64,000 nucleotides of DNA from Hyphomicrobiales bacterium. Lineage in GTDB: Bacteria > Pseudomonadota > Alphaproteobacteria > Rhizobiales > Rhizobiaceae. The stretch spans positions 1 through 64,000 of the forward strand of contig UCNG01000011.1 of NCBI GenBank assembly GCA_900473915.1, written 5' to 3'. Position numbers and translations under genes: made by a program. Every line of letters starts with the position of its first letter. Within the stretch, counting starts at the first letter, position 1. A model generated the notes under the pieces. It was not told the DNA's origin. It made no database searches and saw nothing but the letters and a program-made list of their open reading frames with translations. Shown here in pieces: positions 38,350-54,418 of this stretch.

Positions 38350-38366
38350 TGGCTCCCCGGGCCGGA
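38350..38366. repeat. Left attachment repeat (attL core)
   Basis: TGGCTCCCCGGGCCGGA is identical to 54402-54418, the 3' end of tRNA-Asn. Identity stops on both sides at this 17-base core. It marks the left junction of the element next to the integrase gene. Confidence 0.85.
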
Positions 38367-38474
38367 GAAATTATATCGTCTTTGCTGACCATAACGTAAA
38401 CCTATGTTCTCATAACATACTGTTTTTGCATTTCTTTCTTGAACGTGCTATCCATAGTGCCCATCTATAGCGCA

Positions 38475-38507
38475 GCATCCAAAAGCAGGGAAAAAGCGGG
38501 GAAAAGC
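38475..38507. promoter_or_regulatory. Putative integrase arm-site cluster, left
   Basis: GCATCCAAAAGCAGGGAA followed by AAAGCGGGGAAAAGC. A matching block GCATTCAAAAGCGGGGAA lies at 54316-54333 near attR. Repeated short motifs on both sides of the cores are expected of arm-type sites for tyrosine recombinases; the block also serves as the integrase ribosome-site region. Confidence 0.45.
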
Positions 38508-38510
38508 AAA

Positions 38511-39719
38511 ATGGGGAGCCACACCAGAAACGTTCTGACCGTCAACGGAATAAAATCCAATAAGGCCGCTAAGCTCCGCGACGGCGGCGGCCTTTGGCTC
38601 GTCACCAAGGGCAGCGGACGGTATTGGATCTTCGACTACAGGATAGCAGGCAAGCGCCGTGAAATGGGCATTGGGCCCCTTCACACAGTCGGCCTCGCAG
38701 ATGCCCGCCAGAAGGCCGAGGAAGCCCGGTCACTGGTAAGACAGGGCATCGACCCAATCAATCATCGTCGTCAGGTCGCGATCGAAGAAGCCATCCGCGA
38801 GAAGGCCGAAACGATGACATTCGGTAAATACGCCGACTCTTACATCGATGCTGCCGTAAAGGCCGGAAGATGGCGAGGCGCGAAGACCGAAGCAGGATGG
38901 CGTAACACTCTCACAAATCACGCGGCACCGATCCGGGACAAGCCCCTCGCCGACATCGGCGTTCAAGAAGTTCTGTCGGTTATCCGGCCGCTATGGGGAG
39001 AGAAGCAGGAGACGGCAGAGAAATTGCGCGAGCGCTTGGAACGCGTTTTGGACGCCGCCAAGGTGGAAGGGCTTCGCACCGGTGAGAATCCTGCCGCCTG
39101 GCGCGGGCATCTTGAACACCTGCTGCATAAGCCGGATGCTTTGACGACAAAGGGCAACCATGCCTCTATGCCGAGGCGCGATGTCCCTGCCCTATTCGGA
39201 AAGATTTCGAAGCTCGATACGATCAGTTCGGAAGCGCTGATGTTCGCCATCCTCACCGCCGCCCGTTCTGGAGAGGTGCGCGGCGCGGTCTGGAATGAGA
39301 TTGATCTTGAAAATAAGGTCTGGATCATCCCTGCCGCTAAAATGAAAGCCGGGCGTGAACATCGCGTTCCCTTGTCCGCCGCTGTGCTGGCAATCCTGGA
39401 ACGCATGAAGGCTCGCCAGATCAACGACTTTATCTTCCCAGGAGCGGTAGCCAAGAAGCCGATGAGCGCCAATACCATGGCAAAGACTCTCGGCGAGAAC
39501 GACAGCACTGGGGCGACCGTGCACGGCTTCCGGGCCAGCTTCAGGACGTGGATCACGGATGCCACCGACTTCGACGGAGATCTCGGCGAGATGGCTTTGG
39601 CGCATGTCGTCGGCGACGCGGTAGCGCGAGCCTATGCACGATCCGACGCACTCGAGAAAAGACGCGAGCTAATGGATAGGTGGGCAACCTTTGTCTCAAC
39701 TCCGACCAAACAAATATAA
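38511..39719 (+). CDS. int: P4-type tyrosine integrase
   Basis: 402 residues from ATG 38511 (GGGGAAAAGC ahead); a frame start at 38439 is less likely. N-terminal DUF4102 arm-binding domain (GIKSNKAAKLRDGGGLWLVTK), a SAM-like core-binding domain (TFGKYADSYIDAAVKAG), and a catalytic domain with Arg in TAARSGEVRGAVW, H-x-x-R in VHGFRASFRTW and Tyr in ARAYARSDALEKRRELM. It recombines the element into the 3' end of tRNA-Asn. Confidence 0.95.
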   Translation: MGSHTRNVLTVNGIKSNKAAKLRDGGGLWLVTKGSGRYWIFDYRIAGKRREMGIGPLHTVGLADARQKAEEARSLVRQGIDPINHRRQVAIEEAIREKAETMTFGKYADSYIDAAVKAGRWRGAKTEAGWRNTLTNHAAPIRDKPLADIGVQEVLSVIRPLWGEKQETAEKLRERLERVLDAAKVEGLRTGENPAAWRGHLEHLLHKPDALTTKGNHASMPRRDVPALFGKISKLDTISSEALMFAILTAARSGEVRGAVWNEIDLENKVWIIPAAKMKAGREHRVPLSAAVLAILERMKARQINDFIFPGAVAKKPMSANTMAKTLGENDSTGATVHGFRASFRTWITDATDFDGDLGEMALAHVVGDAVARAYARSDALEKRRELMDRWATFVSTPTKQI

Positions 39720-39775
39720 ATCTAGCATTAATAGGAGGAGATATGTAACATTACACAAAGTATAGCATCGCAAGG

Positions 39776-39803
39776 TTGACTAGACCGAACATTATGCTAT
39801 CTT
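39776..39803 (+). promoter_or_regulatory. Putative promoter of the alpA-like gene
   Basis: TTGACT at 39776-39781, 16 bases, TATCTT at 39798-39803. The 237-base gap 39720-39956 contains no gene; a long leader of about 150 bases would precede the AlpA-like start. Confidence 0.5.
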
Positions 39804-39956
39804 CTCAGAATGTGTATTACGGTACACCGCCTTCCAAGGCAGGCCGACCGCGGACAGACGGGGCCGACGACTAACCTCCGGCCAGCAGGCCATCAATCTC
39901 AAATTCTAAATCGAGATTTTACACGCCATGATTCTGATCTGGCGCGAGGAGGACAA

Positions 39957-40163
39957 ATGCATCCCGCTAATGATAACATACCAATCCTTATTTCGCTGAA
40001 CGACGCCGCCAAGCTCACCAGCTTGAGCCGAACCATGATCAATCGCTATCGAGCAGAGGGCCGGTTCCCTGCTGCTGTGGCCATGGGAGAGCGACGTGTC
40101 GCGTTCGTCCGCGCCGAAGTGGTCGCGTGGGTTCAGGACAAGATAGCCGCCAGAGCCGCCTAA
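39957..40163 (+). CDS. AlpA-family transcriptional regulator/excisionase-like
   Basis: 68 residues, ATG 39957 preceded by GAGGAGGAC; the frame extends upstream to 39810 but without family support. Helix-turn-helix SLNDAAKLTSLSRTMINRYR with GRFPAAVAMGERRVAFVRAEVVAWVQ is the MerR-like AlpA fold. In P4-like and PICI satellites AlpA starts excision and replication in response to a helper, so it is the likely switch of this element. Confidence 0.85.
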   Translation: MHPANDNIPILISLNDAAKLTSLSRTMINRYRAEGRFPAAVAMGERRVAFVRAEVVAWVQDKIAARAA

Positions 40164-40245
40164 CACCCTCACCCCATAACCACCGCATGCGTAACCGCTC
40201 GCGCCACGGGCCGACGCGTGCCCGCTCTCCCCGAATGGAGGATTG

Positions 40246-53169: not shown

Positions 53170-53391
53170 TCAGTTCTTCACAATCATCCCGACGCCGGTT
53201 TCACCGAGAAATTCGATGCCTGCCTTTTCAAGGGCGGCGCGGATGGCCTGAAGATTGTTTGCTATCGGGACCCTTCGACCCTTTTCGAAATCTCGCACGG
53301 TGGAAAGGCTTACGTTTGCCGCCTCGGCTAGCTGTGTCTGGGACCAATCTAATAGACCACGGGCGCCGCGAGATTGTTCAGGCGTAAGCAT
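53170..53391 (-). CDS. XRE-family repressor-like HTH protein (73 aa)
   Basis: MLTPEQSRGARGLLDWSQTQ, LAEAANVSLSTVRDFEKGRR contains a textbook XRE helix-turn-helix; the tail RAALEKAGIEFLGETGVGMIV is typical of short rhizobial XRE regulators. ATG 53391 is the conserved start; the frame runs to 53427. It lies between the cargo operon and the divergent gene at 53536, and the palindrome in its own promoter is a probable operator. Confidence 0.85.
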   Translation of the reverse strand: MLTPEQSRGARGLLDWSQTQLAEAANVSLSTVRDFEKGRRVPIANNLQAIRAALEKAGIEFLGETGVGMIVKN

Positions 53392-53422
53392 GGTGAACGC
53401 AATCCTAATATTTTTTGCTGAC

Positions 53423-53441
53423 GTCAACGATTTTTGTTGAC
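53423..53441. promoter_or_regulatory. Palindromic operator and divergent promoter
   Basis: GTCAAC (53423-53428), spacer of seven, GTTGAC (53436-53441): perfect inverted arms. The right arm contains TTGACA (53437-53442), which with a T/A-rich hexamer about 17 bases later could drive the rightward gene. A further half-site ATCAACG is at about 53466. Likely the binding site of the XRE protein. Confidence 0.6.
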
Positions 53442-53535
53442 AGCGCGTTTTTGATGATTATTCATAACATCAACGAAAAGCACTGACAACAACAGTTGCC
53501 AATCATAGTTAATACACCGTTACGAGGAGACCACA

Positions 53536-53901
53536 ATGCAGCACGTCGTGCCAGCAAACGCCACCGCCTTGCCCGCAGCCAGCAATATGTCGATACGGAC
53601 CAGGCACCAGCAGCCGCGCAACCTTTGCGCCATGGTTATAGATGGCGAAGCCGTCTGGGTTGATATCAACCGCTATGACGAAACTGGGCGCGCCGTAATC
53701 ATCGAACATGATGGACGCATTCGCCTGATGGAAATCGAACAGGAACACATCGGTTTTCGTCCGTTTGGTACTCGCACGGCTTTGGGGCAGCGCTTTAAGT
53801 CAGCACATGGCGGCGTTGCTCGGAACAGCGTGATTGTCGTGGGGATGGTTATTGACGCACCCATTCGCGGCGGCCGGTTGATTGAGGGGGAAATGGCGTG
53901 A
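53536..53901 (+). CDS. Hypothetical phage protein (121 aa)
   Basis: ATG 53536 follows ACGAGGAGACC. The body reads as a beta-rich domain (LCAMVIDGEAVWVDINRYDE, GRAVIIEHDGRIRLMEIEQE, GFRPFGTRTALGQRF). No family recognised. It is transcribed away from the XRE gene and could be an anti-repressor or cro-like partner; only position supports that. Confidence 0.6.
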   Translation: MQHVVPANATALPAASNMSIRTRHQQPRNLCAMVIDGEAVWVDINRYDETGRAVIIEHDGRIRLMEIEQEHIGFRPFGTRTALGQRFKSAHGGVARNSVIVVGMVIDAPIRGGRLIEGEMA

Positions 53902-53999
53902 TCGACCTTGGCTCTTTCATATTCGGCCTCGTCAGCGGTGTCATAGGCTCTTGGGCTGTTATGGCGGTCATTGTCAACACCGACCCGCGCAGGCGCTGA
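53898..53999 (+). CDS. Single-span mini membrane protein (33 aa)
   Basis: GTG 53898 overlaps the upstream stop. IDLGSFIFGLVSGVIGSWAV MAVIV forms one membrane helix, followed by a basic end (NTDPRRR), which by the positive-inside rule points into the cytoplasm. Too short for typical prediction; coupling by overlap supports it. Small membrane peptides of this type can affect superinfection or lysis; function unknown. Confidence 0.5.
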   Translation: MIDLGSFIFGLVSGVIGSWAVMAVIVNTDPRRR

Positions 54000-54014
54000 C
54001 TACGCATCCAATTA

Positions 54015-54091
54015 GGTCCCGTAGCTCAGTTGGATAGAGCACCGGCCTTCTAAGCCGTAGGTCGCAGGTTCGAATCCTGCCGGGATCGCCA
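54015..54091 (+). tRNA. tRNA-Arg(TCT) carried by the element
   Basis: 77 bases: acceptor GGTCCCG/CGGGATC, D-arm GCTCAGTTGGATAGAGC, anticodon loop CTTCTAA with TCT, T-arm GCAGGTTCGAATCCTGC, discriminator G and encoded CCA. It lies inside the 17-bp attachment repeats and so moves with the element. It reads AGA codons. Confidence 0.96.
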
Positions 54092-54401
54092 TCGCCTCCT
54101 TGCCCCCCAGTCAAGGGGTCGGCGTCCCTCCGGGCACACCGCCCTCGCCCGTCACCAAGGCAGGGAAACTACTACACGAGGAGCATCCTGCTTTGGCAGG
54201 CAAGCCCATCGCGGCCACCGTAGGGTCGTACACCTTTGCCGCAGCGCCGCGATGGGCACTGATTCGATTGTCATGATAAGTGTGAACGCCCTACCCTGCA
54301 TCGTTTACGAATGAAGCATTCAAAAGCGGGGAAGCAAAGAGGGGAAGATTTTATCGAGAAATCGATTTCGCTAAACAAGACAACTACTTACAAGAAGTAG
54401 C
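54092..54401. other. Non-coding right end of the element
   Basis: 310 bases without a gene between tRNA-Arg and attR. CCCATCGCGGC (about 54210) and GCCGCGATGGG (about 54248) form a long inverted repeat with stem of 11 bases. GCATTCAAAAGCGGGGAA at 54316-54333 matches the left arm block at 38475, so the region likely holds integrase arm sites. Confidence 0.5.
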
Positions 54402-54418
54402 TGGCTCCCCGGGCCGGA
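54402..54418. repeat. Right attachment repeat (attR core)
   Basis: Same 17 bases as 38350-38366. Here they form the 3' end of tRNA-Asn including its encoded CCA, so integration restored an intact tRNA gene. Confidence 0.85.

Follow-up and report, generated by a model that had tools for sequence, protein, structure and literature searches.

Capsid-forming phage-inducible chromosomal islands (cfPICIs) are defined by an own complete head and packaging set. Other phage-inducible chromosomal islands (PICIs) of Gram-negative bacteria often carry a lone capsid gene (PMC10111431, PMC6092414, both in excerpt), found in the late zone of 21 of 29 reference elements according to excerpts of PMC10111431, and in the cohesive-end (cos) type island SaPIbov5 the delta domain is 87 residues long (1-87) in the capsid homologue Ccm and 128 (1-128) in the capsid protein of the helper (PMC8569155, in excerpt). 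Here, we consider a 16-kb element in a 64,000-nucleotide stretch of a Hyphomicrobiales genome (assembly GCA_900473915.1, contig UCNG01000011.1, positions 1-64,000), referred to below as the window. An earlier reading of the sequence alone (the sequence-only reading) had proposed either a capsid-encoding satellite akin to capsid-forming islands or a prophage worn down to part of its genes. Our best explanation is that the element is, with good probability, a helper-dependent, cos-type, capsid-redirecting, PICI-like satellite of siphophages related to Sinorhizobium phage NV1.1.1.

The element is bounded by exact 17-nt repeats at 38350-38366 and 54402-54418, the attachment (att) sites, of which the right copy forms the 3' end of a tRNA-Asn gene (54402-54476, minus strand). 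At the left end lie an inward-facing tyrosine integrase (38439-39719; PF13356, PF22022, PF00589) and an AlpA-type regulator or excisionase (39810-40163; PF05930, 2.5e-10), followed on the same plus strand by a putative replication initiator in two overlapping frames (40625-41450; weak O-like match, a single open reading frame [ORF] in the relative L058) and a putative late regulator with a helix-turn-helix-like C-terminus (41413-42543). A late zone of phage late genes without a complete virion set comes next, also on the plus strand: a gene that we call o43070 (43232-43759, possibly DNA-binding), a small gene ahead of the capsid gene (43746-44012), an HK97-type capsid protein (44012-45103; PF05065, 1e-58), an HNH endonuclease (45692-45988; PF01844; phrog_2323, 4e-34), the small terminase TerS (46101-46457; PF05119, phrog_83), a TAC_11 tail assembly chaperone of the gene transfer agent (GTA) gp10 type (47004-47369; PF11836, 2e-9), a gp10-like neck or tail completion gene (47362-47802, matching over 47362-47799), a tape-measure gene (47792-49998; TMP_3, 1.2e-47), and a Tail_completion_gp17 or tail terminator gene (50017-50433; PF11367, 4.7e-27). 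The gene list of the sequence-only reading was thus borne out by profile scans, including its placement of the DUF3168 (gp17) gene after the tape measure, an order seen in the window alone among the members annotated. In size, in the pairing of integrase with AlpA, and in the lone capsid gene of the late zone, the element resembles Gram-negative PICIs such as EcCICFT073 and PmCI172, and its overall arrangement (integrase and AlpA first, replication next, and a changeable late zone last) would fit the same plan. It differs from them in its hosts and helpers, in its HNH, TerS, chaperone, gp10-like, and tape-measure genes, and in having no PICI primase that we could find in the window, where the only replication candidate is the weak O-like initiator; AAA_25 or DUF3987 proteins are present in relatives.

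A complete prophage would be expected to show TerL (large terminase), portal, protease, and tail tube genes, intact or as remnants. Profiles built from related phages, of HK97/D3 type only, gave no TerL, portal, or protease match in window ORFs of at least 40 codons at E≤1, and neither a tail tube nor a lysis gene was found among the element ORFs. A scan of 38 more element ORFs on both strands, most of them at least 80 aa long, returned only phrog_2315 and one sub-threshold zinc finger. The earlier statement that no TerL, portal, protease, major tail protein, or lysis gene is present therefore stands.

The same absences recur across a family. A genome scan for capsid relatives gave 57 loci and a virus scan the best 80 of at least 596 matches. 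In all, 15 relatives were found, every named host being a Rhizobiales bacterium; with the window, the counted elements are the 16 comprising L001, L002, L003, L004, L058, L059, L060, L061, L062, L063, L064, L145, L154, L162, and L167 (L for loci, G for genomes below). L050, a remnant, and L169, probably another, were not counted, L065 repeats L001, and at least L058, L059, L061, L063, L145, and L162 come from cut records, in which absences are weak evidence. Fourteen loci have a best segment at least 67% identical to the window capsid protein (L001-L004, L050, L058-L065; L050 is a fragment); their fetched DNA contains no portal or protease, and the sole TerL among them, at L001/L065, is that of the prophage around the element. 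Loci at or below 57% capsid identity, by comparison, carry a TerL-portal-protease cassette wherever the contig reaches far enough, the exception being L013, with TerL pieces only; L022, L055, L056, and L074 start at or near the capsid gene. Searches with o43070 added L145, L154, L162, and L167. Across the 16 elements, the capsid gene is universal and o43070 is present in 15 (L061 is cut before it), followed by the tape measure in 14 (weak in L167), the chaperone and the gp10-like gene in 12 each, and TerS-like and HNH genes in six each; fibre genes occur in L058 and L062, and a fibre-like gene in L167. None has its own TerL or portal, and only L167 has its own protease. A 537-aa gene beside TerS in L002, considered as a TerL, proved to be a Sll1717-family P-loop ATPase. 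The hallmark gene o43070 had no match in 50,697 phage records and no useful match among solved structures, T-complex chains at 0.005-0.025 being taken as chance. The uncounted locus L169 (G048) combines a weak o43070 relative with protease-like pieces, a TerS-like gene, and nearby transposase-like genes.

Evidence on the identity of the helper comes foremost from L001, which lies within a prophage of Ochrobactrum sp. CM-21-5 (G001), between terL and portal; the prophage has its own TerS, TerL, portal, protease, capsid protein, probable tube, and tape measure. A 16-nt repeat stands at both ends of L001, one copy in the 3' end of terL and the other immediately ahead of the portal gene, and the same 16 nt are present, unoccupied, at the terL end of NV1.1.1. 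L145 starts after the first part of a portal gene, so that both L001 and L145 occupy late genes of a helper prophage, as helper-embedded PICIs (HE-PICIs) do; unlike HE-PICIs, L001 keeps the terL end rather than splitting the gene, and the window element sits in tRNA-Asn. In the excerpted part of the PMC10111431 survey, HE-PICIs with phage surroundings are reported only from Enterobacterales. The helper-embedded position is therefore not new in kind, and the lineage itself was not met in the literature searched: among the matches listed for satellites with tape measures or in Rhizobiales/Brucellaceae, from a search that left subscription journals and bioRxiv largely outside, there was no such lineage. 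Both capsid-carrying and helper-embedded satellites are in this way extended to Rhizobiales, including relatives of Brucella. Prophages similar to the host of L001 occur in G002 (Devosia) and on the L061 record (G008), and Devosia elaeis S37 has both L002, with its cos-like region at about 11,230-11,500, and a helper-type prophage in one genome. In the order as a whole, a helper-type protease of at least 60% identity is present in three of 397 genomes (G001, G002, and G393; some match at 1e-30 in 28 of 397), and those same three genomes hold a strong o43070 match; because the G393 protease is part of the element itself and the G001 satellite lies within its helper, G002 alone gives independent evidence of co-occurrence. 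G005, which has a capsid remnant, also has a helper-type protease, at 77%. From these genomic associations, cos siphophages like NV1.1.1 are the likely helpers, and the window element is very likely a satellite of such phages; NV1.1.1 and similar prophages share with it a cos-like region and related chaperone, gp10, and tape-measure genes, and differ from it as full phages with TerL, portal, protease, and tube.

The proposed packaging signal lies in the spacer between the HNH and terS genes (46003-46049, plus strand, in the window), a position within which the genome of phage D3 ends, its record ending between HNH and TerS; in phage HK97, cos cleavage is stimulated by the HNH protein (PMC11331095, in excerpt). 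We drew a pattern by eye from HNH-terS spacers and scanned it over 5.5 Mb (both strands counted). A strict first version had 0 matches in the window, and a looser version was used instead, which yielded 19 matches at 14 distinct sites, 11 of them in satellites and three in NV1.1.1-type phages (the L001 host prophage, L066, and L138), compared with one match in 3.2 Mb of base-shuffled sequence. A profile that included flanks, and hence overlaps HNH coding sequence, recovered 15 of the 16 satellites and, beyond the phages used in building it, the G008 phage, with no other locus of that set under E 0.05; in a separate small set, the G002 helper and a further prophage of G001 matched weakly. A core-only profile recovered 14 of 16, three of them out of sample (L003, L059, and L061). 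In direct alignments against seven helper-type spacers, with 48 spacers of other phages as controls, the best helper score exceeded the best control score (33-59) by at least 10 in 15 of 16 satellites. The pairing also tended to be local: the L061 spacer aligned best with that of the G008 phage (score 121, z 20) and the L002 spacer with that of the G002 phage (89, z 12.6), and the L001 spacer reached 48 against its host prophage and 46 against NV1.1.1, with the higher z for NV1.1.1. The window spacer aligned best with NV1.1.1 (49, against a control maximum of 36), as expected of a cos-type satellite with a predicted cleavage site. Taken together, these comparisons make it highly probable that the shared HNH-terS region is cos, and the satellite-helper pairs with pairwise-matching cos-like regions render packaging specificity directly testable. 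In L003, L059, L060, L061, L062, and L063, the cos-like profile matches twice within a short distance, downstream of the capsid gene.

The capsid proteins of the family form a coherent group. A tree was built from 51 of them, each cut after the delta domain; 16 came from satellites and 35, hand-chosen from those found, from phages. A branch supported at 96/94 sets all 16 satellite proteins apart from the phage proteins, and support for a position close to NV1.1.1-type phages is weak (39/83). NV1.1.1 and like prophages provide the nearest phage capsid proteins, at 54-57%. The delta (scaffold) domain, measured as the part before a fixed anchor, spans 107-115 residues in all 16 satellites, about 35 residues short of the median of 144 in 123 phage-side proteins, of which only two have 125 residues or fewer (one of these, L023 at 69, perhaps with a miscalled start). 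Ccm, too, is a capsid homologue with a shortened delta domain; there the effect was measured, here it is read from genes, and the likeness is one of domain length. By this analogy, it is on balance probable that the satellite capsid protein redirects capsid assembly, and a Ccm-sized shortening in distant bacteria provides a natural test of size determination in HK97-type capsids. The capsid protein also has a weak match to encapsulin, which, together with the GTA-type match of the chaperone, raises the alternative of a domesticated shell of GTA-like or encapsulin-like type, which the integrase, the att repeats, the horizontal spread, the changing integration sites, and the phage-like cos-like region render extremely improbable.

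The ratio of nonsynonymous to synonymous substitution rates (dN/dS), obtained for 22 of 24 gene pairs (two were saturated), was 0.025-0.171 in 21, the outlying value of 0.45 belonging to gp10 between L060 and L064, at low dS; most gene pairs compared are thus under purifying selection. The window copy shows damage of its own: an in-frame stop interrupts the gp10-like gene, the frame of which is open from 47491, and the frame of the tape measure shifts near 49468. A general sequencing error is unlikely, because no internal stop was present in 18 of 19 neighbouring chromosomal genes compared. As a separate observation, the chromosomal gene at 22107-23468 has an internal stop relative to its G001 homologue. 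A simple deletion derivative, that is, a prophage eroded to part of its genes, would explain both this damage and the missing TerL, portal, protease, and tube, but it sits poorly with 15 relatives, most in different hosts, that lack the same genes, with a single capsid clade, with purifying selection on most gene pairs compared, with a hallmark gene not seen in the 50,697 phage records, and with a relative embedded in an intact-looking prophage; we consider it quite improbable. None of the 15 relatives was a full prophage; full prophages among all close relatives were what the sequence-only reading had named as counting against a satellite. The "worn prophage" that it offered as an alternative accordingly fails for the family and is in part right for the window copy, which has broken gp10-like and tape-measure genes and may be losing its tail genes.

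The role of the tape-measure module is the most interesting point of the lineage. A set of chaperone, gp10-like, and tape-measure genes, with no detected tube, recurs across satellites, and among the matches listed in the literature searched, no satellite with this set but no tube was described. We had expected satellite tape measures to be shorter than those of helpers, and this was not consistently so: they measure 535-780 aa (including the broken frame of the window), compared with 730, 753, 805, and 859 aa in helpers, and only four of 44 phage tape-measure frames fall below 780 aa, two of the four being cut by the end of the stretch. One could suppose that the element, as a satellite or a defence island, uses its capsid, chaperone, and tape-measure proteins solely to poison the assembly of the helper and does not build them into particles of its own. 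Blockers of virion assembly borne by satellites and prophages are known (PMC11364771, in excerpt), tail parts without a tube would suit such a role, and some relatives carry an anti-phage-like ATPase or HD-domain gene; on the other hand, 15 of 16 elements retain a cos-like region for packaging, and the long tape measures exceed what a blocker would need. We regard pure poisoning as unlikely, and the chance that the satellite tail proteins are instead built into particles as slightly short of even. If they are, the recurrence of tape measure and chaperone in the absence of a tube would amount to a new way of tail hijacking.

A second element in Ochrobactrum sp. CM-21-5 (L200/L206, about G001:C1:582,800-600,000) bears on the label of capsid-forming island that the sequence-only reading had applied. 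It opens with an integrase, AlpA-like genes, an AAA_25 gene, and a 78% relative of the product of 41413-42543, continues with portal, S78 protease, a capsid protein (about 53% identical to that of the window), and an AAA_33/HNH-like gene, and then carries gp10-like, gp17-like, and head completion genes, TerS, TerL, and a 660-aa tail protein, the C-terminal half of which matches the L001 tape measure (49%). It closes with a 95% relative of the helix-turn-helix repressor-like gene at 53170-53427 (minus strand) of the window and with a tRNA-Arg. At the DNA level, the two share 85% identity over 900 nt, 97% over 371 nt, and 90% over tRNA-Arg (in the window, tRNA-Arg [TCT] at 54015-54091, plus strand, inside the element). 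No repeat fixing its ends was found when each side was searched within itself, and no cos-like match in it rose above background; its late zone, too, ends with a tape-measure-like gene without a detected tube. Since the window and L200/L206 share a backbone, related backbones can carry either a capsid-only or a whole-head late zone, which fits satellites. The label thus suits this G001 relative with the same regulators and not the window: despite the common regulators and tRNA-Arg, the own capsid protein, and a tail that is presumably borrowed, a true cfPICI with its own whole head and packaging set is a very improbable description of an element that has no portal, protease, or TerL and whose capsid gene is of the L001 type. 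Relatives of the 41413-42543 product stand upstream of o43070 in 11 of 16 elements and also at L001 2548-3645, upstream of the packaging genes of the host prophage, and at L200 5622-6689; this gene may, on such placement, couple late expression of satellite and helper.

The satellite interpretation of the sequence-only reading is supported by the conserved relatives, which likewise have no TerL or portal of their own, by the single clade of their capsid proteins, by a cos region like that of helpers, and by a prophage-embedded relative. Several observations weigh on the other side. The core-only cos profile does not single out the G002, G005, and G008 helpers from controls, and the L004 spacer scores at background (41, with a control at 40). 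No helper-type protease was found in G003 or G004, both of which carry satellites. In trees of the chaperone and of gp10, satellites and helper-type phages do not form separate groups, and repeated capture of tail genes is therefore possible; in the window, both the gp10-like and the tape-measure gene are broken. Finally, capsid genes of E. coli PICIs are reported to be dispensable for transfer (PMC10111431, in excerpt). For a satellite of NV1.1.1-like phages, the following cycle can be envisaged. When a helper phage is active, AlpA and integrase would release the element, and its own initiator would replicate it; the cos-like region, with the element's HNH and TerS, would draw the helper large terminase onto satellite DNA. 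Its capsid protein, either by itself or together with helper subunits, would then form a small head on the helper portal, with the protease also coming from the helper, a step that we model on Ccm of SaPIbov5. Most members would also supply chaperone, gp10-like protein, and tape measure, leaving tube, tip, and lysis to the helper. More tentatively, and somewhat against the odds, such a satellite could re-equip both ends of the virion, with its own capsid protein for a small head, with its chaperone, gp10-like, and tape-measure proteins for a changed tail length or DNA entry, and at times with a fibre of its own. It would borrow motor, portal, protease, and tube and maintain a cos region that fits the local helper, some members doing so from inside the helper's packaging genes.

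The late genes appear to be mobile. The late module of the window is 87.1% identical to that of L001 over 5,848 nt, and the proportion of synonymous differences (pS) is 0.10-0.46 in seven of nine late genes; the two others, TerS and o46457, stand at 0.61-0.63. Seven genes of the two host chromosomes give 0.54-0.80. The window integrase, AlpA, and replication genes have no match in L001. With late genes closer than the chromosomes and early genes unmatched, the late module has evidently moved between satellites. At pS 0.098, the HNH gene (45692-45988) is far below its neighbours, a hint of a separate recent exchange.

In G001, G424, and G519, the DNA beside tRNA-Asn differs from the left flank of the window, except for a 25-nt match at the att site in G001, and a clean empty site for the entire element was not found among them. 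In G424 (L190), about 190 nt beside the same tRNA-Asn match the right end of the window, and no satellite protein of the query set is encoded there. A zinc-ribbon gene (50569-50832), considered as a P4-Delta-like activator, matched below threshold. Elsewhere in the element, two small conserved genes with no assigned function (46457-46965, plus strand) are kept in relatives, and one of the 38 further ORFs matches phrog_2315, of unknown function, at 4.9e-22. Two cold-shock-domain-like genes (45119-45695, plus strand; PF00313) follow the capsid gene, and possible cargo genes, including a DUF4145 protein recognised by profile scan, occupy 50860-53137 on the minus strand.

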